Below the pieces are notes generated by a model that worked only from the letters and a program-made list of their open reading frames with translations, made no database searches and was not told the DNA's origin. From Synechococcus sp. JA-2-3B'a(2-13) (GTDB lineage: Bacteria; Cyanobacteriota; Cyanobacteriia; Thermostichales; Thermostichaceae), in contig NC_007776.1 in NCBI RefSeq assembly GCF_000013225.1, positions 143,277 through 207,276 of the forward strand: a DNA stretch of 64,000 nucleotides, in the 5' to 3' direction. How positions within the stretch are numbered: position 1 is the first letter of the stretch; each line of letters begins with the position of its first letter. The position numbers were made by a program, and so were the translations under genes. Below are positions 29,633 to 37,634 of the stretch, one piece after another.

Positions 29633-30424
29633 ATGCGCATCCAAGTCGAGAACCTTTGGGTTGCCTTCAAAAACAAGGTTGCCCTAAGGGAGGTTTACCT
29701 TGACCTATTTGGCGATGGAGCGCAGGTTGTGGCCTTGATCGGACCTTCGGGAGCAGGAAAGTCGACCTTTCTTAGGCTTTTGAAAGGGATGGTCAAGCTC
29801 AGCGGCGGAAAAGTTTGGGTTGATTCTCTTCCTCTCCATGAAGGCCAAAGGGATGCCCTGCAACAGCTGCGCAGGCGCACGGCCATGGTCTACCAGACCT
29901 TTCAACTCATCGGGCGCCTGACGGTTCTGGAAAACGTTCTTGTTGGGCGTCTGCCTCACATGAGTCCCATTCGGGGTCTTTTCAAGCACTTTTCTGTTCA
30001 GGATTTGGCCAAGGCGGAAAAGCTGCTGGAAGAGGTAGGGTTGCTAGAGCATGCCTGGCAAAGGGCCGACGCTCTCTCAGGGGGGCAGCAGCAGCGAGTG
30101 GGTATTGCTCGCGCCTTGATCCAGGAGCCAGCCCTGATTCTGGCCGACGAGCCCATTTCGGCTTTGGATCCTAAAAATGCAAAGGTAATTATGGAGCTGC
30201 TGCTGGGAGCGGTGCGCCGCCAGGGGATTCCGTTGCTGGTTACCCTGCACCACCTAGAAATGGTGCGCCATTACGCCGATCGAGTCGTTGCTTTCAAGGA
30301 GGGCCAGGTTTTCTTCAATGGGCCGCTTTCCGATTTTACCTCTGAAAAGGAAAAGGAGCTCTACTTTGGGGAGAAGGAAACCCACGAGGCAAGCGAATGG
30401 TTTTCCTCAACCTTGATGGTCTAA
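29633..30424 (+). CDS. phnC: Phosphonate ABC transporter ATP-binding protein PhnC
   Basis: A 263-residue ATPase energising phosphonate uptake. Walker A is GPSGAGKST, Q-loop region AMVYQTFQLIGRLTVLENVL, signature LSGGQQQRVGIARAL, Walker B LILADEPISALDP and H-loop LHHLEM. The segment NVLVGRLPHMSPIRGLF is typical of the PhnC family. It begins the phnCDEGHIJKLM run; a GTGAGG ribosome site and the PHO-box-like repeat at 29558 precede it. Length is normal. Confidence 0.93.
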   Translation: MRIQVENLWVAFKNKVALREVYLDLFGDGAQVVALIGPSGAGKSTFLRLLKGMVKLSGGKVWVDSLPLHEGQRDALQQLRRRTAMVYQTFQLIGRLTVLENVLVGRLPHMSPIRGLFKHFSVQDLAKAEKLLEEVGLLEHAWQRADALSGGQQQRVGIARALIQEPALILADEPISALDPKNAKVIMELLLGAVRRQGIPLLVTLHHLEMVRHYADRVVAFKEGQVFFNGPLSDFTSEKEKELYFGEKETHEASEWFSSTLMV

Positions 30425-30470
30425 CAAGATCCACCTTCAACCGCAAGTTAACTGCAAAGGAGAAAACCTT

Positions 30471-31367
30471 ATGCGGAGAAGAAAAATTCTGTTCCTTGCT
30501 GCCTTCCTCATGGGAATTTCCAGCTGGGTTCCAGGGCTGGCTCAGAAGCAAAACTGGCCCAAGGAGCTGGTGATTGCTGAAGTACCGGTGGAGAGTGCTG
30601 CCGATTACGAAGCTCGCTATGCTCCCTTTTTGGATTATCTCAAACAAAAACTGGGGATCCCCGTCCGCCTGTTTGTGGCCGGTGACTACACGGCGGTGAT
30701 GGTCTCCCAGGCACAAGGCCAAACTCACGTAGCTTTCTACGGCCCTGGCTCCTACGTAGATGCCATTGAAAAGGCCAACGCTCCCATTGAAGCGTTCGTG
30801 AAAGAGGACTCGCTGCGCTCGGGTACCGTTTATCACTCCTTGATACTTTCCAAGAAAGGCAGTGGCATCAAAACTCTAGAAGACGCCAAGGGCAAAGATT
30901 TTGCTTTCGTCGACCCAGAGAGCACCTCTGGCTTCAAGGTGCCCATGGCCTACTTCTGTCTTGAGGCCAAAATCAAGCCCAAGGAGTATTTCAAGCGGGT
31001 GGCTTTTGCTGGCACCCACGAGTCGGTCATCTTGGGGATAGCTCAGGGAACCATTCCCGTTGGTGTAACCTGGGATACCGGGATCAGCATTGCCACCAAC
31101 AAGGGGCAGATCAAAGGCATAGAGGACCTTGAGGTCATCTGGAGATCGGATCCCATTCCTTCCTCTCCCTGGGCCTACCGTAAAGATCTGCCAGAGGATC
31201 TCAAGGAGGCCTTGCGCACGGCCTATCTGGAGTACGAAAACACGCCGGAGGGTCAGAAATGGCTGGAGGCTCGTGGACTGAAGGGCTTTGAGCCGGCTAG
31301 CGACGCAGATTACGATCCCTTCCGCAAGGTCAACGATGCTCTTAAGAAACCTGAGTGCCAACTCTAG
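30471..31367 (+). CDS. phnD: Phosphonate-binding periplasmic protein PhnD
   Basis: A 298-residue solute-binding protein with a Sec signal peptide (LFLAAFLMGISSWVPGLAQ) and no lipobox cysteine. The mature protein has the phosphonate/phosphate-binding family pattern: LVIAEVPVESAADYEARYAPFLDYL at the start of lobe 1 (seen as AEVPVESAADYEARYAPFL), VAFYGPGSYVDA, and FAFVDPESTSGFKVPMAYF, with the STSG loop contacting the phosphonate. AAAGGAG precedes the ATG. Its end overlaps phnE by 32 bp. Confidence 0.92.
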   Translation: MRRRKILFLAAFLMGISSWVPGLAQKQNWPKELVIAEVPVESAADYEARYAPFLDYLKQKLGIPVRLFVAGDYTAVMVSQAQGQTHVAFYGPGSYVDAIEKANAPIEAFVKEDSLRSGTVYHSLILSKKGSGIKTLEDAKGKDFAFVDPESTSGFKVPMAYFCLEAKIKPKEYFKRVAFAGTHESVILGIAQGTIPVGVTWDTGISIATNKGQIKGIEDLEVIWRSDPIPSSPWAYRKDLPEDLKEALRTAYLEYENTPEGQKWLEARGLKGFEPASDADYDPFRKVNDALKKPECQL

Positions 31368-32154
31368 GAGACTTCCCCCCCTGCCAGCAGAGCTTAAGCG
31401 CAGGGAGCTGATCACGGTTGTGCTGTATGGGGGGGTTTTTCTCGCTCTCTTGCTGACGGCGGAGCCTGCCGGGATCTCGCCAGGAAAGTTGTTAGCTGGC
31501 TTGGGGAGGAGTGCGGCCTTCTTGGCTCGCTTCTTTCCTCCCAGCTTTTACTTCTTGCCCAACTTCCTTTACTCCCTGTTGCAAACCCTGATGATGGCCC
31601 TCTGGGGCACCTTCCTGGCCACTTTTCTCACGGTTCCCTTGGCCTTCCTGGGATCCAGAAATGTCATGCGTTCCCCTGCGGTTTACCTGCTTGTGCGCGG
31701 GCTCATGGATGTCCTCAGGGGGCTCAATGAACTGGTCTTGGCATTGGTTTTTGTGGCCGCAATTGGCCTAGGACCCTTGCCAGGGATCCTAGCTTTGACC
31801 CTGCACACGGCGGGTGTGGCAGGCAAGCTCCTCTCGGAGGCCATCGAGACAGTAGATATGAAGCAGGTGGAGGCGGTAGAGGCTACAGGTTCCCACCCTC
31901 TCCTGGTTATCGCCTATGGCTTCTGGCCACAAGTGGCTCCTGCCTTTTACTCCAGTACTCTCTACCTTTTTGAGGTTAACGTGCGCTCGGCAACGGTCTT
32001 GGGCTTGGTGGGGGCAGGGGGCATTGGGTTTGATTTGATGCAGACCATACGAGCCTTTCGCTTTCAAGATGCGGCCACGGTCGTTCTGCTGATTCTGCTA
32101 GCTGTATTTACAATTGACAAAGTTTCGGCGCGGATCCGCCAGACCCTGATTTAG
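31336..32154 (+). CDS. phnE: Phosphonate ABC transporter permease PhnE
   Basis: A 272-residue inner-membrane permease with about six helices. NFLYSLLQTLMMALWGTFLA and the EAA loop EAVEATGSHPLLVIAYGFWP fit PhnE, as does LFEVNVRSATVLGLVGAGGIGF after it. I start at ATG 31336, inside the phnD 3' end; the true start could be slightly downstream, since an AGGAG site lies right after the phnD stop but no ATG follows it. It ends nine bases before phnG. Confidence 0.88.
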   Translation: MLLRNLSANSRRLPPLPAELKRRELITVVLYGGVFLALLLTAEPAGISPGKLLAGLGRSAAFLARFFPPSFYFLPNFLYSLLQTLMMALWGTFLATFLTVPLAFLGSRNVMRSPAVYLLVRGLMDVLRGLNELVLALVFVAAIGLGPLPGILALTLHTAGVAGKLLSEAIETVDMKQVEAVEATGSHPLLVIAYGFWPQVAPAFYSSTLYLFEVNVRSATVLGLVGAGGIGFDLMQTIRAFRFQDAATVVLLILLAVFTIDKVSARIRQTLI

Positions 32155-32163
32155 GAGGCTGGG

Positions 32164-32583
32164 ATGCAGCCCCTAGAGATGCTAGAGCTGTTGCAGGAGG
32201 CCCCCGAGAAGGAGGTGCTGGCTTTGGCGCGGGAGGTCAGGCCTGCTCTGGGATCCAGCCAAAAGCTCAGGGAAGGGGCAGGGCTGCTGGCGCTCCCCTT
32301 TGAGGACTCCCGCACGGGGACGCCCTTCTACGTGGGAGAAGTGCTGGTCTACGAGGTCTGGCTGCGCTTTCCAAAAAAGGGAGTAGAAGGATACGGGATG
32401 GTGCTGGGGGAAAAGCCGCGTCTGGCGCGCGCCCTGGCCTACCTAGACGCCGCTCTGCAGGCGGGAATTGCTGTGGAGAAGATCCAGGCTTTGGCGCTAG
32501 CGGCTCAGAAGGATCTTCAAGAAGAAGACGAGCGCCTCTGGCGCAAGGTAGCTGCAACTCGCCTGGAGGTGGAGACTCTGTGA
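32164..32583 (+). CDS. phnG: C-P lyase subunit PhnG
   Basis: A 139-residue component of the PhnGHIJ carbon-phosphorus lyase core complex, which with PhnI, PhnH and PhnL forms alpha-D-ribose 1-methylphosphonate 5-triphosphate from ATP and phosphonate. VGEVLVYEVWLRFPKKGVEGYGMVLG corresponds to the conserved centre (seen as GEVLVYEVWL and GYGMVLGEKP), followed by an alpha-helical end. TTAGGAGG precedes ATG 32164. The stop overlaps the phnH GTG start by 4 bp. Confidence 0.88.
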   Translation: MQPLEMLELLQEAPEKEVLALAREVRPALGSSQKLREGAGLLALPFEDSRTGTPFYVGEVLVYEVWLRFPKKGVEGYGMVLGEKPRLARALAYLDAALQAGIAVEKIQALALAAQKDLQEEDERLWRKVAATRLEVETL

Positions 32584-33161
32584 GCCTGGGGATGTCCAAA
32601 GCCTACGGCCCCACACCGGGACTGGCAGAAAAGCAAAGCCAGCAGGTCTTCCGGGCGTTGGTTAGGGCGTTGAGCTACCCTGGCCGTCTGGAGAGCTTTC
32701 CCGCTCGCTCCCTTCGCCAAGCCTTTCGCCTCATTGGGCTGACGCTGGTGGATGGCAATGTAGGGGTTTGGGCGCCAAGCTGGCTGCTGTCGGATTTGCG
32801 TGGGCAGGATCCCCGGCCTGTGGCTTTGGAGGCTGCTGACTTTGTCTTTGCCGAGCAGCTGGAGAGTTTGCCCGCTGGCCCAGACAGCCTTTTGGCTCTC
32901 AAAAGAGGCACCCACCTTGAGCCTGAAGCGGGAGCGACCCTTATCCTGGGGGCCCCCTTGGGCCGGGGATCCCCTGTGTTGCTCAGAGGGCCCGGCATAG
33001 CTGGGGAGATCCAGTTGGCTGTAGGCTTGCCCTCTCTGTTTTGGCAGCTGCGCTCCCAGATCCTGGCCTACCCGCTGGGAGTGGACATCCTGTTAACTGA
33101 CGGCCCCCAAGTGGTAGGCTTACCCCGAAGCGTGGAGGTGGGTGGATGGGCTATGTCGTAG
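32580..33161 (+). CDS. phnH: C-P lyase subunit PhnH
   Basis: A 193-residue PhnH. It has a PLP-transferase-like fold without PLP and is part of the core complex. Conserved parts include SQQVFRALVRALSYPGRLES near the N-terminus, LTLVDGNVGVW and the C-terminal FPLGVDILLTDG-like segment, here YPLGVDILLTDGPQVVGLPR. The GTG start overlaps the phnG stop (GTGA); an ATG 12 bases later is an alternative. The gene overlaps phnI by 16 bp. Confidence 0.87.
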   Translation: MSLGMSKAYGPTPGLAEKQSQQVFRALVRALSYPGRLESFPARSLRQAFRLIGLTLVDGNVGVWAPSWLLSDLRGQDPRPVALEAADFVFAEQLESLPAGPDSLLALKRGTHLEPEAGATLILGAPLGRGSPVLLRGPGIAGEIQLAVGLPSLFWQLRSQILAYPLGVDILLTDGPQVVGLPRSVEVGGWAMS

Positions 33162-34198
33162 CGCGGGGCAGCCAAGAGGCCATTCTCAATGCCGAGGCCC
33201 TTTTTCGCGAGCTGTTGTCAGCGGCAGAAGCCAAAAGCAGGCGAGGCCGGACAAAGCAGCTGGCTGGGCTGCCCTATCTCCTGGATCATGTGATGGCAGA
33301 GGCGGGGCTGTGGGCTCCGGAGCTGGCGGCCACTGCCCTTGTGCAGACAGGGGGGGACCTCTACGAGGCCCTGCTGCTTCTGAGAGCACACCGGACTACT
33401 CTCCCTCGCCTAGGGAAAGCCCAGCTGCAGAAAAAGGAAGATCTCCTGCTGGTGCGTCGGCTTTCCTCGGCTTTCAAGAGCATTCCCGGCGGCCAGGTCT
33501 TGGGGCCCACCCTAGACTACAGCCTGCGTCTTTTGGGCTTTTCTGAAAGCCCCCCGCTAGAGCCGGCGGCCGTGGCTGCTGCCCAGCACTATCCTTCTGT
33601 GCGCAGCTGGCTGAGGGAGCAAGGTCTGCTGGAAGAAGATCCCACGGCAGAGCAGCAAGCCAGTAGCCCTGCTCCAGGGGAAGAGATTCCCGACTTGACG
33701 CGGCAGCCACTGCTGTTTCCAGCGCCGCGGGCCCACCGCCTGCAAGCTTTGGCCAGGGGAGATACGGGGGGACTTCTGGCTCTGGCCTACAGCGCCATGC
33801 GCGCCTACAACGTCCACACCCACCCAACGGTTGCCGAGTTGGGCGTGGGCTATCTCGAGGTACGCGCCTTTCATCCTGTGCGGGGGGGAAGCTTTCGCCT
33901 GGGGCGGATCCGCCTGGTCTTTACTGAGGTGGTGGGACACGGAGAAAAAGGATACCGCTTGGGCTTTGCCGCTAGCCTGGGTTGGAACGAGGGGCGGGCC
34001 ATCGCTGGCGCCATGCTGGATTTGGAAATGGATCGCCCCAGCCATCCGGCTCGCAGCGAGGAGTTTGTCCTGGTGCATACGGATCCCGTGGAGGCCTCCG
34101 GCTTTGCCCTCCACTACAAGCTACCCCACTACGTAACCTTTCTCAGCAACTGGATGAGCCACTTCCAAAAGGAGGCCTCCCTTGAAACCCAAGCATAG
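33146..34198 (+). CDS. phnI: C-P lyase subunit PhnI
   Basis: A 350-residue PhnI, the nucleosidase-like subunit that displaces adenine from ATP with phosphonate. MGYVVARGSQEAILNAEAL is the family N-terminus; RRLSSAFKSIPGGQVLGPTL, MRAYNVHTHPTVAELGVGYL and HTDPVEASGFALHYKLPHYV (within conserved blocks) follow in normal order. GGAGGTGGGTGG upstream serves as ribosome site. It overlaps phnH by 16 bp and phnJ by 17 bp, indicating tight translational coupling. Confidence 0.92.
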   Translation: MGYVVARGSQEAILNAEALFRELLSAAEAKSRRGRTKQLAGLPYLLDHVMAEAGLWAPELAATALVQTGGDLYEALLLLRAHRTTLPRLGKAQLQKKEDLLLVRRLSSAFKSIPGGQVLGPTLDYSLRLLGFSESPPLEPAAVAAAQHYPSVRSWLREQGLLEEDPTAEQQASSPAPGEEIPDLTRQPLLFPAPRAHRLQALARGDTGGLLALAYSAMRAYNVHTHPTVAELGVGYLEVRAFHPVRGGSFRLGRIRLVFTEVVGHGEKGYRLGFAASLGWNEGRAIAGAMLDLEMDRPSHPARSEEFVLVHTDPVEASGFALHYKLPHYVTFLSNWMSHFQKEASLETQA

Positions 34199-35048
34199 CT
34201 ATGCCTACCTGGATCTGGAGGCCAAGCGAGAAATTCGGCGCAAGGTTCTCAAGGCCCTGGCCATACCGGGCCATCAAGTTCCCTTTGCTAGCCGGGAAAT
34301 GCCGCTGGCTCGCGGCTGGGGCACAGGGGGATTGCAGCTTACGCTCAGCCTGGTGGGGCCGCAGGACGTGGTGAAGGTCATTGACCAGGGGGCCGATGAC
34401 TCTGTCAATGCCGCCAACTTGCGCCGCTTCATTGCCCAGGTCAGCGGCGCTCGAACAACCACCGACACGCTGGAGGCCACCCTCATCCAAAGCCGCCACC
34501 GCATCCCCGAGGAGCGGCTCCAAGAAGGTCAAATCCTAATCCTGCAAGTTCCCATCCCTGAGCCTCTGCGCTATGTGGAGCCCTCTGACGCCAGGGCGCG
34601 GGAGCTACATGCTCTGGGCGACTATAGCCTGCTGTGGGTGGATCTTTTTGAGGAGCACCTACGCCACGGCCAGAGCCGCAAGGGAGCGGCCTACCCAGTT
34701 CTGGTCCATGGGCGCTATGGGATGGATCCCAGCCCTCTGCCCCGCTGGGATCTGCCCAAGCTGCATCTGGCAGCCCATATCACCCTCTTTGGGGCCGGGC
34801 GGGAGAAGCGGCTCTATGCCGTCCCTCCCTACACCCGGGTGGAGCCCTTGGCCTTTGTGGATCGGCCCTTCCAGCCGGAGCCCATTTTGGGATCCTGCCG
34901 TCGCAGCGGTTGCCGCCACGTCTTCCTCAACGCCATTCCCCAAGAAGATGGCAGCTTGGCCTATGAAATCTCCGACCAGGGCTATATGGAAAAGCTGCTG
35001 GCCGGGAAAACGAGCGGTCCTCTATTTGTGGAGAAAGAGCATGGCTGA
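34182..35048 (+). CDS. phnJ: C-P lyase radical-SAM-like subunit PhnJ, with altered cysteine set
   Basis: A 288-residue PhnJ, which in E. coli uses a [4Fe-4S] cluster, SAM and a thiyl radical to break the C-P bond of the ribosyl phosphonate. Blocks such as AIPGHQVPFASREMPLARGW, KVIDQGADDSVNA, LIQSRHRIPEE, VPIPEPLRYVEP and LFGAGREKRLYAVPPYTRVE are excellent matches. The C-terminal cysteine region differs: E. coli has C241, C244, C266 and C272, whereas here GSCRRSGC gives C239 and C244, and the FVCSDTDYC motif is replaced by YEISDQGYM (I263, M269). These two cysteines are the only ones in the protein. The reading frame is intact to the end and overlaps phnK by 8 bp. Whether it is active is open. 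Confidence 0.9.
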   Translation: MKPKHSYAYLDLEAKREIRRKVLKALAIPGHQVPFASREMPLARGWGTGGLQLTLSLVGPQDVVKVIDQGADDSVNAANLRRFIAQVSGARTTTDTLEATLIQSRHRIPEERLQEGQILILQVPIPEPLRYVEPSDARARELHALGDYSLLWVDLFEEHLRHGQSRKGAAYPVLVHGRYGMDPSPLPRWDLPKLHLAAHITLFGAGREKRLYAVPPYTRVEPLAFVDRPFQPEPILGSCRRSGCRHVFLNAIPQEDGSLAYEISDQGYMEKLLAGKTSGPLFVEKEHG

Positions 35049-35808
35049 GGAGACCCCCCTTCTGGAGCTGGTCAAGGTTTGCAAAGCCTACGGGGATCGC
35101 TGGGCGCTTAAGAACGTCAGCCTCAAGCTCTATCCCCAAGAGGTGCTGGGGGTGGTGGGAGCTTCCGGCAGTGGCAAGACTACTCTTCTGAAGATCCTTT
35201 ACCTTCAGGAGACAGCCCAGGGGGAGTATCGGCTAAACGTGCCGGGTTGGGAGGGACGTAACCTGCTGTTGCTCTCTCGCTACGAGCAGCCTGCAGCGCG
35301 GCACTACCTGGCCATGGTCTATCAGGATGCCGCCCAGGCCCTGCGCATGGGCTTTGCGGCCCTGACTAATGTTGCGGAGCCCCTTGTCCTTAGAGGAGAA
35401 CGGCGGTTTGGAGTGCTGGAAGCGGAGGCGCAGGAGGCTTTGGAGCGAGCCGATTTTCCTTTAGAGCGAGCCGGGGATCCCCCAGCTTCTCTTTCGGGAG
35501 GAGAGCGCCAGCGGGTACAGATTGCCAAAGCTTTAGTCCAAAAGCCTCTGGCTGTTCTTTTGGACGAGCCCACCACCGGTTTGGATTTGCTGGTGCAGGC
35601 CACCTTTCTGGATACTCTGCGCCGCCTCAAGCGGCAGTTGGGGATGAGCCTCATCCTAGTAAGCCACGATCTCTCGGTCGTGAGGGCTGTGGCGGATCGA
35701 ATTGTGGTGTTGTACCAGGGGGAGGTAGTGGAGGAGGGATTGGCCGACCAAGTGCTGGAGGATCCTCGCCACCCCTTTACCCAGGATCTGGTTGCCGCAA
35801 GACTTTAG
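35041..35808 (+). CDS. phnK: C-P lyase ABC-type ATPase PhnK
   Basis: A 255-residue ABC ATPase that docks on the PhnGHIJ core. Walker A GASGSGKTT, signature LSGGERQRVQIAKAL, Walker B LAVLLDEPTTGLD and H-loop VSHDLSVVR are intact. PhnK-typical features are ILYLQETAQGEYRL and AMVYQDAAQALRMGF. It resembles oligopeptide-transport ATPases (C-terminal HPFTQDLVAA). ATG 35041 overlaps the phnJ stop by 8 bp; the frame is open far upstream but that part is the phnJ shadow. Confidence 0.9.
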   Translation: MAEETPLLELVKVCKAYGDRWALKNVSLKLYPQEVLGVVGASGSGKTTLLKILYLQETAQGEYRLNVPGWEGRNLLLLSRYEQPAARHYLAMVYQDAAQALRMGFAALTNVAEPLVLRGERRFGVLEAEAQEALERADFPLERAGDPPASLSGGERQRVQIAKALVQKPLAVLLDEPTTGLDLLVQATFLDTLRRLKRQLGMSLILVSHDLSVVRAVADRIVVLYQGEVVEEGLADQVLEDPRHPFTQDLVAARL

Positions 35809-35818
35809 GAAGGGCAAG

Positions 35819-36514
35819 GTGTTGCAGGTCGTTAACTTAGAAAAGCGGTTCTTTCTTCACCGACTGGGGCGAGAGGTTCTGGCCTTCCAGCAGGTGAGCT
35901 TTTCCCTGCAAGCCGGAGAGTTTTTGCTGCTGGAGGGCCCCAACGGCTCTGGCAAGTCTTCTCTACTGCGAACCCTCTACCGCAGCTATTGGCCTACGGC
36001 AGGACAAGCCCTCCTGCAGACCCCTCTGGGAACGGTGGATCTGGCCCGCTTAGGGGATCGCGAGGTGTTAGCAATCCGCCGCGAGCGCATCGGCTACGTC
36101 AGCCAGTTTCTGGATCCCAGGCCCCGCACCACGGCCTTGGAGCTGGTTGCGGAGCCCTTGCTGTGGCAGGGAGTAGCGGAAAACCAAGCGCGACATCGAG
36201 CAGCAGAGCTGCTCCTGGAGCTGGGTCTGAAGCCAGAGTTGCTGGAGACTTTTCCAACCAGCTTCTCGGGGGGCGAGAAACAGAAAGTCAACTTGGCTCG
36301 CTCTCTCATCCACCCCTATCCGCTGCTGCTTCTGGACGAGCCCACCGCCAGCTTGGATACTGCAGCCAAGTTGGCCTTGCGAGAACGCCTACGAGCCTTG
36401 AAGCAGCAGGGAACAGCTATCATTGGCGTTTTTCACTCCTTAGACGATGTGTCGGGTTTGGTTGACAAAACCTATTCCCTGGAGGTGAGGGCAAATGTGG
36501 CTAGCAGGGCCTAA
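35819..36514 (+). CDS. phnL: C-P lyase ABC-type ATPase PhnL
   Basis: A 231-residue ABC protein needed with PhnGHI to form the triphosphate intermediate. Walker A GPNGSGKSS, signature FSGGEKQKVNLARSL, Walker B LLLLDEPTASLD, and H-loop position FHSLDD (histidine present). IGYVSQFLDPRPRTTALELV matches PhnL. I use the GTG at 35819 since AGGAAGG is six bases upstream and the protein then starts MLQVVNLEKRF, as in the family; a TTG at 35792 would overlap phnK. It overlaps phnM by 20 bp. Confidence 0.88.
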   Translation: MLQVVNLEKRFFLHRLGREVLAFQQVSFSLQAGEFLLLEGPNGSGKSSLLRTLYRSYWPTAGQALLQTPLGTVDLARLGDREVLAIRRERIGYVSQFLDPRPRTTALELVAEPLLWQGVAENQARHRAAELLLELGLKPELLETFPTSFSGGEKQKVNLARSLIHPYPLLLLDEPTASLDTAAKLALRERLRALKQQGTAIIGVFHSLDDVSGLVDKTYSLEVRANVASRA

Positions 36515-37634
36515 GCTAGTTCTCCCCGATGGTGTCCTCCCGGTGGGATCCCTGCGGCTGGAGGAGGAGCGGATTGCCGAGATTCGGCAGGGGCAAGTGG
36601 GGGAAGGGATCCCTTTGCGAGGACTTACCCTGGTGCCCGGCGTAGTCGACCTCCATACCGATAGCCTGGAGCCCGAGCTGGAGCCGCGCCCAGGGGTACA
36701 GCTGGCGGTGGACATGGCCTTGGGGATTTGGGAAAACCGAGCTTTGGCGGCGGGGATTACCACTGCCTTTGTAACTCTGTCCTTTTGGGAAGGCCTGCCT
36801 GGCTGGCGCAGCCCAGAAACGGCCTTGGCTATGGCAGAGCAGTTGGTGGCGCTGCGTTCCCAGCTGGCTCTGGACTTGAGGATCCACGCTCGCTATGAAC
36901 TCTCGCGCCCCTTGGGAGCAGCAGCTGTTCGCCAAGCTCTCAGCCAAGGCTGGGTGGATCTCCTTTCCTTCATGGACCACACCCCCGGCCAAGGCCAATT
37001 CCGGACGCCGGAGGACTACATCCGCTACATGGCTCGCCATCTGGCCCGGCCTTCCGAGGAGGTTGCCGCTAGTTTGGCGGCCAAGGCGGGGGAGGAGACC
37101 TTGCAGAGCTTTGCCCAATTGGCTCAGCAAGCGCAAGCTTTGGGGGTACCTTTGGCTTCCCACGACGACGACTGCCCCGCCAAGGTTCAGTTAATGGCCA
37201 AGATGGGCCTGAAAATTAGCGAGTTTCCGGTTACCCTAGCAGCAGCTTTGGAAGCGCGGAAACTGGGCCTGCTGGTGGTCATGGGGGCTCCCAATGCCCT
37301 GAGGGGATCCTCCCATGTCGGCAATCTCTCCGCTTCGGAGGCTCTACAAGTAGGAGCCCTAGGCGCCTTGGCCACTGACTACTCCCCCGCTTCAGCCTTG
37401 AGGGCTGCCTTTGCCTTGGCGGAGAAGCAGCTGCTGGATCTGCCCCAAGCCATAGCTTTGGTCACTCACAACCCTGCCCAGGCGGTTGGTCTGCAGGATC
37501 GGGGAGCCCTTCGCCCAGGCCTAAGAGCCGATCTAGTGGTGCTGCGGGAGAAACCCTTCCAGGTTATGGGTGTATTCGTTGCCGGCAGGCCCGTCTTTCT
37601 CAGAGATAGCCTCTGTTGGAGGGGGGTCTTCTAG
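36495..37634 (+). CDS. phnM: Alpha-D-ribose 1-methylphosphonate 5-triphosphate diphosphatase PhnM
   Basis: A 379-residue amidohydrolase-fold enzyme that removes pyrophosphate from the ribosyl triphosphate, giving the PhnJ substrate. VPGVVDLHTDSLEPELEPRP carries the first metal ligands, followed by FMDHTPGQGQF, LASHDDDC and SDYSP-like LATDYSPASALRAAF near the end. GGAGGTGAGGG precedes ATG 36495. It is the last phn gene here; phnN, phnO, phnP and a phnF regulator are not in this window, although PhnP (cyclic phosphate hydrolysis) is normally required downstream of PhnJ. Confidence 0.92.
   Translation: MWLAGPKLVLPDGVLPVGSLRLEEERIAEIRQGQVGEGIPLRGLTLVPGVVDLHTDSLEPELEPRPGVQLAVDMALGIWENRALAAGITTAFVTLSFWEGLPGWRSPETALAMAEQLVALRSQLALDLRIHARYELSRPLGAAAVRQALSQGWVDLLSFMDHTPGQGQFRTPEDYIRYMARHLARPSEEVAASLAAKAGEETLQSFAQLAQQAQALGVPLASHDDDCPAKVQLMAKMGLKISEFPVTLAAALEARKLGLLVVMGAPNALRGSSHVGNLSASEALQVGALGALATDYSPASALRAAFALAEKQLLDLPQAIALVTHNPAQAVGLQDRGALRPGLRADLVVLREKPFQVMGVFVAGRPVFLRDSLCWRGVF

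Follow-up and report, generated by a model that had tools for sequence, protein, structure and literature searches.

The PhnJ protein of the hot-spring cyanobacterium Synechococcus sp. JA-2-3B'a(2-13) (OS-B') belongs to a natural, widespread, cysteine-poor (Cys-poor) class of this C-P lyase subunit, which is distributed bimodally against the four-cysteine class and is of multiple origin. PhnJ has been described with four conserved cysteines (PMC11978286). We drew PhnJ relatives from whole genomes, a scan of genome contigs, and plasmids, all in public assemblies of few phyla, and found that 151 of 188 distinct full-length sequences carry the four cysteines, 37 carry only the equivalent of Escherichia coli C241, and none is intermediate (one further row in the set is a fragment, outside the 188). 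On balance, we lean toward reading the Cys-poor complexes as C-P lyases that would dispense with the Cys4 Fe-S/thiyl site and center their catalysis on the His/Zn site between PhnI and PhnJ; for such a form of the enzyme, the textbook C-P lyase mechanism may not hold. With the cluster cysteines repeatedly removed in nature and the second site intact, a direct test is available in culturable thermophiles (OS-B' and Thermus thermophilus HB8 with pVV8).

The window, that is, the whole 64,000-nucleotide stretch of DNA analyzed, lies inside the complete 3,046,682-bp chromosome of OS-B'. It holds a phnCDEGHIJKLM operon on the forward strand (29633 to 37634), in which phnG, phnH, phnI, phnK, phnL, and phnM surround phnJ in the standard order (Table 1). 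The preliminary description had called the operon otherwise complete, which applies to phnCDEGHIJKLM but not to phnF, which the operon lacks, or to PhnP and PhnN, for which no match at or above the family cutoff was found anywhere in the OS-B' genome. It had also raised the prospect of a second phnJ; the complete genome holds one PhnJ only, the copy in the window. GC content is lower in phnC, phnD, and phnE (0.54 to 0.56) than in phnG through phnM (0.58 to 0.63), and the transporter and lyase halves of the operon may differ in their histories.

Table 1. The phn operon of OS-B' and key residues of PhnI and PhnJ (window positions)
Feature	Position	Strand	Evidence or comparison
phnC, transporter ATPase	29633..30424	+	
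phnD, phosphonate-binding protein	30471..31367	+	PF12974, E=4e-74
phnE, permease	31288..32154	+	
phnG, no cysteine	32164..32583	+	
phnH, no cysteine	32580..33161	+	
phnI, no cysteine; Zn-site histidines kept	33146..34198	+	
PhnI His323	codon 34112	+	E. coli His328
PhnI His328	codon 34127	+	E. coli His333
PhnI third Zn-site histidine, kept			E. coli His219 equivalent; alignment
phnJ, C241-only (Cys-poor) class, 288 aa	34182..35045	+	PF06007, E=3e-127
PhnJ Gly30, conserved	34269..34271	+	E. coli Gly32, proposed glycyl-radical residue
PhnJ His106, conserved	34497..34499	+	E. coli His108; role from PMC9947105
PhnJ Cys239	34896..34898	+	E. coli C241; sole cysteine kept in 37/37 class members
PhnJ Ser242	34905..34907	+	E. 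coli C244 position; S/T in every member
PhnJ Cys244	34911..34913	+	E. coli S246 position; not conserved in class
PhnJ Ile263	34968..34970	+	E. coli C266 position; I/V/L/A/T in members
PhnJ Met269	34986..34988	+	E. coli C272 (proposed thiyl) position; M/A/V/L/G in members
phnK, ABC ATPase	35041..35808	+	ABC_tran, operon position
phnL, ABC ATPase	35792..36514	+	ABC_tran, operon position
phnM, amidohydrolase (RPnTP hydrolase)	36495..37634	+	

The phnJ frame is intact, as had been described, and its product matches the PF06007 profile at 423.7 bits against a cutoff of 25 (residues 4 to 271 on profile positions 2 to 271 of 275); no NCBIfam model was matched by the protein, but in view of the Pfam match this does not matter. 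The protein contains just two cysteines, C239 and C244. By alignment, E. coli C241 corresponds to C239, C244 to S242, C266 to I263, and C272 to M269, and the four positions that define a canonical radical PhnJ of the Fe-S/thiyl type are thus occupied by C, S, I, and M. The preliminary description had correctly identified the only two cysteines and placed I263 and M269 at the C266 and C272 positions. It was also right that canonical cysteines have been lost, but it counted two, whereas three are gone (C244, C266, and C272): the OS-B' C244 that it took for a survivor aligns with E. coli S246 and not with C244. In the nearest relatives, from Thermus, this site is occupied by V or A.

Compared with the E. 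coli core complex, Phn(GHIJ)2 with PhnK/PhnL (PDB 4XB6 and 7Z15 to 7Z19), OS-B' shares the phnGHIJKLM order, 51 to 52% PhnJ identity, and the residues of the Zn/His site, and differs in that E. coli PhnJ has C241, C244, C266, and C272 while the Cys-poor class has C241 only. An AlphaFold model of OS-B' PhnJ superposes on E. coli PhnJ (7z19_D) with 274 aligned positions (residues 2 to 275, rmsd 1.6, Z 38.4), and the model predicts that the PhnJ fold, including the CTD, is kept in OS-B'. Identity between OS-B' PhnJ and that of the Thermus plasmid pVV8 is 36/53 in the CTD and 200/235 in the remainder of the protein; the CTD is diverging faster, yet it has been kept.

We then asked what is kept and lost across the operon. 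Among all seven subunits, PhnJ positions 244, 266, and 272 (E. coli numbering) are the only ones that split the two classes with zero overlap. PhnI H219, H328, and H333 are unchanged in all 29 aligned Cys-poor loci, PhnJ G32, W48, R107, H108, and R109 are unchanged in 30 of 30, and C241 accompanies G32 throughout the class; the OS-B' equivalents of the Zn/His-site residues (PhnI H219/H328/H333 and PhnJ G32/H108) are all present. Since PhnGHIJ of OS-B' holds just the two PhnJ cysteines, a conventional three-Cys [4Fe-4S] cluster is impossible there. This bears out the earlier statement that the cysteines are too few for a three-Cys radical-SAM site, and it argues against a different cluster arrangement of that kind; the part of that proposal that stands is that the standard site appears not to be in use, which is better read as a class that works without it. 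Similarly, the suggestion that another protein performs the cleavage finds no footing in a genome with one PhnJ, a class with no compensating cysteine conserved in PhnG/H/I/K/L/M, and neighborhoods with no replacement gene in common. Apart from the core, the only gene they share is the common TIGR03308, a real neighbor present in several Cys-poor lineages, and canonical loci have it too. Other gene clusters were overrepresented in Cys-poor loci and missing from canonical ones; the representatives inspected resemble shadows of phn genes, read antisense or in an alternate frame. Cys-poor operons keep phosphonate transporters and phnM, with phnN and TIGR03308 in some; PhnN scores above the cutoff in Mucilaginibacter, and a PHP protein in Cys-poor members is related to cyclic-phosphate dihydrolase, though below the cutoff.

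Cys-poor PhnJ occurs in 10 of 30 PhnJ-bearing genomes of Chloroflexota, in 4 of 4 genomes in the order of Mucilaginibacter (Bacteroidota), in 10 of the 89 Rhodobacteraceae genomes with a match, and, as called by a score gap, in 2 of 64 Alphaproteobacteria at large. It is also carried by rhizobial, Nitratireductor, and Haematobacter plasmids, while no PhnJ relatives were found on viral contigs with the patterns used. The nearest relatives found are the plasmid-borne phn operons of T. thermophilus (pVV8, pHB5002b, and pTthSNM7-6b), which share with OS-B' the C241-only pattern, the phnCDEGHIJKLM order, and 82 to 83% PhnJ identity. They differ in their flanks: a LacI-type regulator or a substrate-binding protein is encoded upstream and, in pVV8, a TIGR03308 fragment follows downstream, none of which accompanies the chromosomal OS-B' operon. 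Because the pattern is common to 36 other sequences, sequencing error is excluded as its cause, as is a lesion restricted to OS-B'. The preliminary description had asked whether other active PhnJ proteins share the pattern as a known class: 36 others share it, and no description of a Cys-poor PhnJ class was found in the open-access literature searched. It had further proposed that an alignment across phyla would show whether I263 and M269 are conserved; the loss of the cysteines is common to the class, but the residues that replace them vary (Table 1).

The Cys-poor copy is the sole PhnJ in OS-B', in the 10 Chloroflexota genomes, and in the 4 Bacteroidota genomes. Two PhnJ matches are present in 8 of the 10 Cys-poor-bearing Rhodobacteraceae, and in most such members of this family the second PhnJ scores as canonical; genomes with both classes may divide labour between them. 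Rhodobacteraceae UBA6796 (G398:C24, L187) has three matches. Cys-poor and four-Cys phnJ genes lie about 8.5 kb apart on one contig, and a third PhnJ elsewhere in the genome is of the four-Cys type, an arrangement that suggests specialized, parallel C-P lyases.

In the PhnJ tree, OS-B' and Thermus fall together in a main Cys-poor clade of 25 rows. A concatenated PhnGHIJKLM tree built without the cysteine domain sets the Bacteroidota sequences apart from the main Cys-poor set and nests a Dehalococcoidia Cys-poor member within a group of four-Cys sequences. The AU test rejected a single origin of the Cys-poor sequences (P = 9e-64), and a clade uniting only the main and Bacteroidota sets was rejected more weakly (P = 0.018). 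Since joint Cys-poor clades are rejected, the same three cysteines have been lost independently at least twice and probably three times; the third origin is less sure because LG+G4 was the model used and many of the rows are compositionally deviant. Canonical cyanobacterial PhnJ (Nostoc, Lyngbya, Phormidium, and others) shares PF06007 and 52 to 54% identity with the OS-B' protein, but it has four cysteines, forms a separate clade, and is not the source of the OS-B' copy. Furthermore, phnJ is present in only one of nine genomes sampled in the order of OS-B', namely, OS-B' itself. Vertical cyanobacterial inheritance is ruled out by this absence from the other sampled members and by the grouping with Thermus plasmids, and these sequence relationships indicate that the OS-B' phn operon was transferred horizontally between thermophiles. 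In base composition the operon is close to the average of the window, so that such a transfer would be not recent, or ameliorated. Cys-poor PhnJ is under strong purifying selection in otherwise intact phnGHIJKLM operons, with pairwise dN/dS of 0.03 to 0.19 in computable pairs (one pair was saturated), similar to that of phnI.

The radical mechanism of C-P lyase is unresolved, and a second putative active site has been located between PhnI and PhnJ (PMC9947105). There, an interface Zn2+ is bound by PhnI His328 and His333, both of which are essential for growth on phosphonates, and adjoins PRcP and PhnJ His108, with His108 contacting the 1,2-cyclic phosphate of PRcP (PMC9947105). Since the loci examined show repeated loss of the cysteine site and no loss of any of the PhnI histidines, the Cys-poor class amounts to an evolutionary experiment on this active-site question. 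We infer from the missing cluster ligands that catalysis would take place at the Zn/His site. Ribosyl phosphonate would be made as usual by PhnI/G/H/L and PhnM, and its C-P bond would be cleaved with no [4Fe-4S]/thiyl centre held by Cys4. The reaction would center on the metal site that PhnI (His219/328/333) forms with PhnJ (loop 37-49 and His108), which PhnK/PhnL would open and close. The CTD would persist as a folded element with a structural or regulatory function, and C241 would have a separate, required role. We propose more tentatively, and as something short of an even prospect, that C-P lyase cleavage needs no Cys4 [4Fe-4S]/thiyl centre, that the cluster-less class uses the PhnI-PhnJ metal site, and that the radical-SAM role of the cysteines is class specific or misassigned. 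If active, the class would change the mechanism of a known aerobic methane source, as well as the assumption that phosphonate use via C-P lyase always needs iron, as has been argued (PMC6852614).

Like radical SAM and glycyl-radical enzymes, PhnJ is described with SAM, a [4Fe-4S] cluster, and a glycyl radical, and Gly32 is kept in the Cys-poor class; unlike them, OS-B' PhnJ is missing the cysteine proposed as the thiyl as well as two of three ligand cysteines. Biochemical work published on E. coli PhnJ, the Fe-S/SAM part reportedly being that of Kamat in 2011 and 2013 (cited in PMC9947105), supports a SAM/[4Fe-4S]/glycyl-radical route and counts against a cluster-free reading, as does the lack of a recognizable PhnP or PhnN in OS-B'. 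The retention of C241 in every member likewise points to a continuing importance of part of the Cys site, while conservation of the proposed radical residue Gly32 suggests that some radical chemistry may persist. Together, these two residues leave room for radical catalysis by the Cys-poor complex on the basis of a different cofactor or radical source, in which C241 would act as a single ligand or thiyl, or a separate activase or oxygen-dependent metal centre would make the Gly32 radical. Avoidance of an oxygen-labile cluster could be favored in aerobic or oxygenic groups, and many members belong to groups generally known as such (Thermus, a cyanobacterium, Rhodobacteraceae, and Mucilaginibacter). 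However, a three-Cys [4Fe-4S] site cannot be built from a single cysteine, no other PhnGHIJ cysteine is conserved, the Cys-poor neighborhoods share no gene other than those of the core and TIGR03308, and the Fe4S4 site lies 30 Å from Gly32 in solved E. coli structures (PMC9947105), leaving this a possible but rather improbable account. It is doubtful, too, that the canonical cysteines form mainly a structural, zinc-ribbon-like metal site, so that their concerted loss would mark a ligand set swapped for a hydrophobic core and say little about catalysis in either class. The three ligands were indeed lost together, with no intermediates, and are now small polar, hydrophobic, or small residues in a CTD whose predicted fold is kept; yet this account conflicts with the published Fe-S/SAM biochemistry and leaves unexplained why C241 was retained in every member through at least two origins.

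A different reaction altogether, such as the synthesis or modification of ribosyl phosphonates or phosphate esters with the C-P bond left intact, and with any methane from OS-B' cultures coming from another route or from contaminating bacteria, seems unlikely to us. The absence of residues proposed for the cleavage chemistry would suit it, as would the lack of recognizable PhnP and PhnN in OS-B' and the second, canonical-scoring PhnJ of most Cys-poor-bearing Rhodobacteraceae, which fits a division of labour. Against this stand the Chloroflexota, Bacteroidota, and OS-B' genomes in which the Cys-poor copy is the only PhnJ, and the phosphonate transporters, phnM, and sometimes phnN and TIGR03308 that the operons keep. 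The methane/ethane result for OS-B' itself is said to be that of Gomez-Garcia et al. in 2011. Phosphonate use by OS-B', invoked in the preliminary description, also counts against it and is supported second-hand by one paper, which credits JA-2-3B'a(2-13) with a full phn cluster, growth on phosphonates as the sole P source, and their degradation, and which links such cyanobacteria to methane release (PMC5955973). Another paper ties the difference in phosphonate use between OS-B' and OS-A to the C-P lyase operon, which OS-A lacks (PMC9600594). Finally, the idea that this PhnJ has lost its activity and is a degenerate subunit heading for loss is very improbable. Only the loss of residues deemed catalytic in E. 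coli speaks for it, and it is opposed by the 36 other sequences with the same pattern, by purifying selection, by complete operons in several phyla, by the close identity to Thermus plasmid proteins, and by the reported growth on phosphonates (PMC5955973).

Several neighborhoods in the comparison have features of their own. In one Cys-poor operon from Anaerolineae, phnK and phnL are separated by an inserted gene for a YfcE-like metallophosphoesterase (L012:9630-10385), and one for a YmdB-like metallophosphoesterase lies downstream in Thermus pVV8 (L092:17037-17840). Bacteroidota Cys-poor operons encode a protein of about 270 to 295 aa after phnM (L027:13939-14742, L033:13863-14669, and L175:13334-14221); the L027 protein matched no Pfam or NCBIfam family, and by eye it may be a 2H-type phosphoesterase that could replace PhnP. 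A divergent phnGHIJKL set without adjacent phnM was seen on a Rhizobium sp. WL3 plasmid (L193:6428-11256) and on Proteus mirabilis pPM35-1 (L194:6473-11181), with similar matches on Klebsiella and Morganella plasmids. It adjoins a LysR regulator, an iron-type ABC transporter, and a hypothetical protein of about 170 aa. As a mirror image of the Cys-poor class, its PhnJ keeps the four cysteines and has Gln at the His108 position (RQRVPE), while its PhnI keeps all three histidines.
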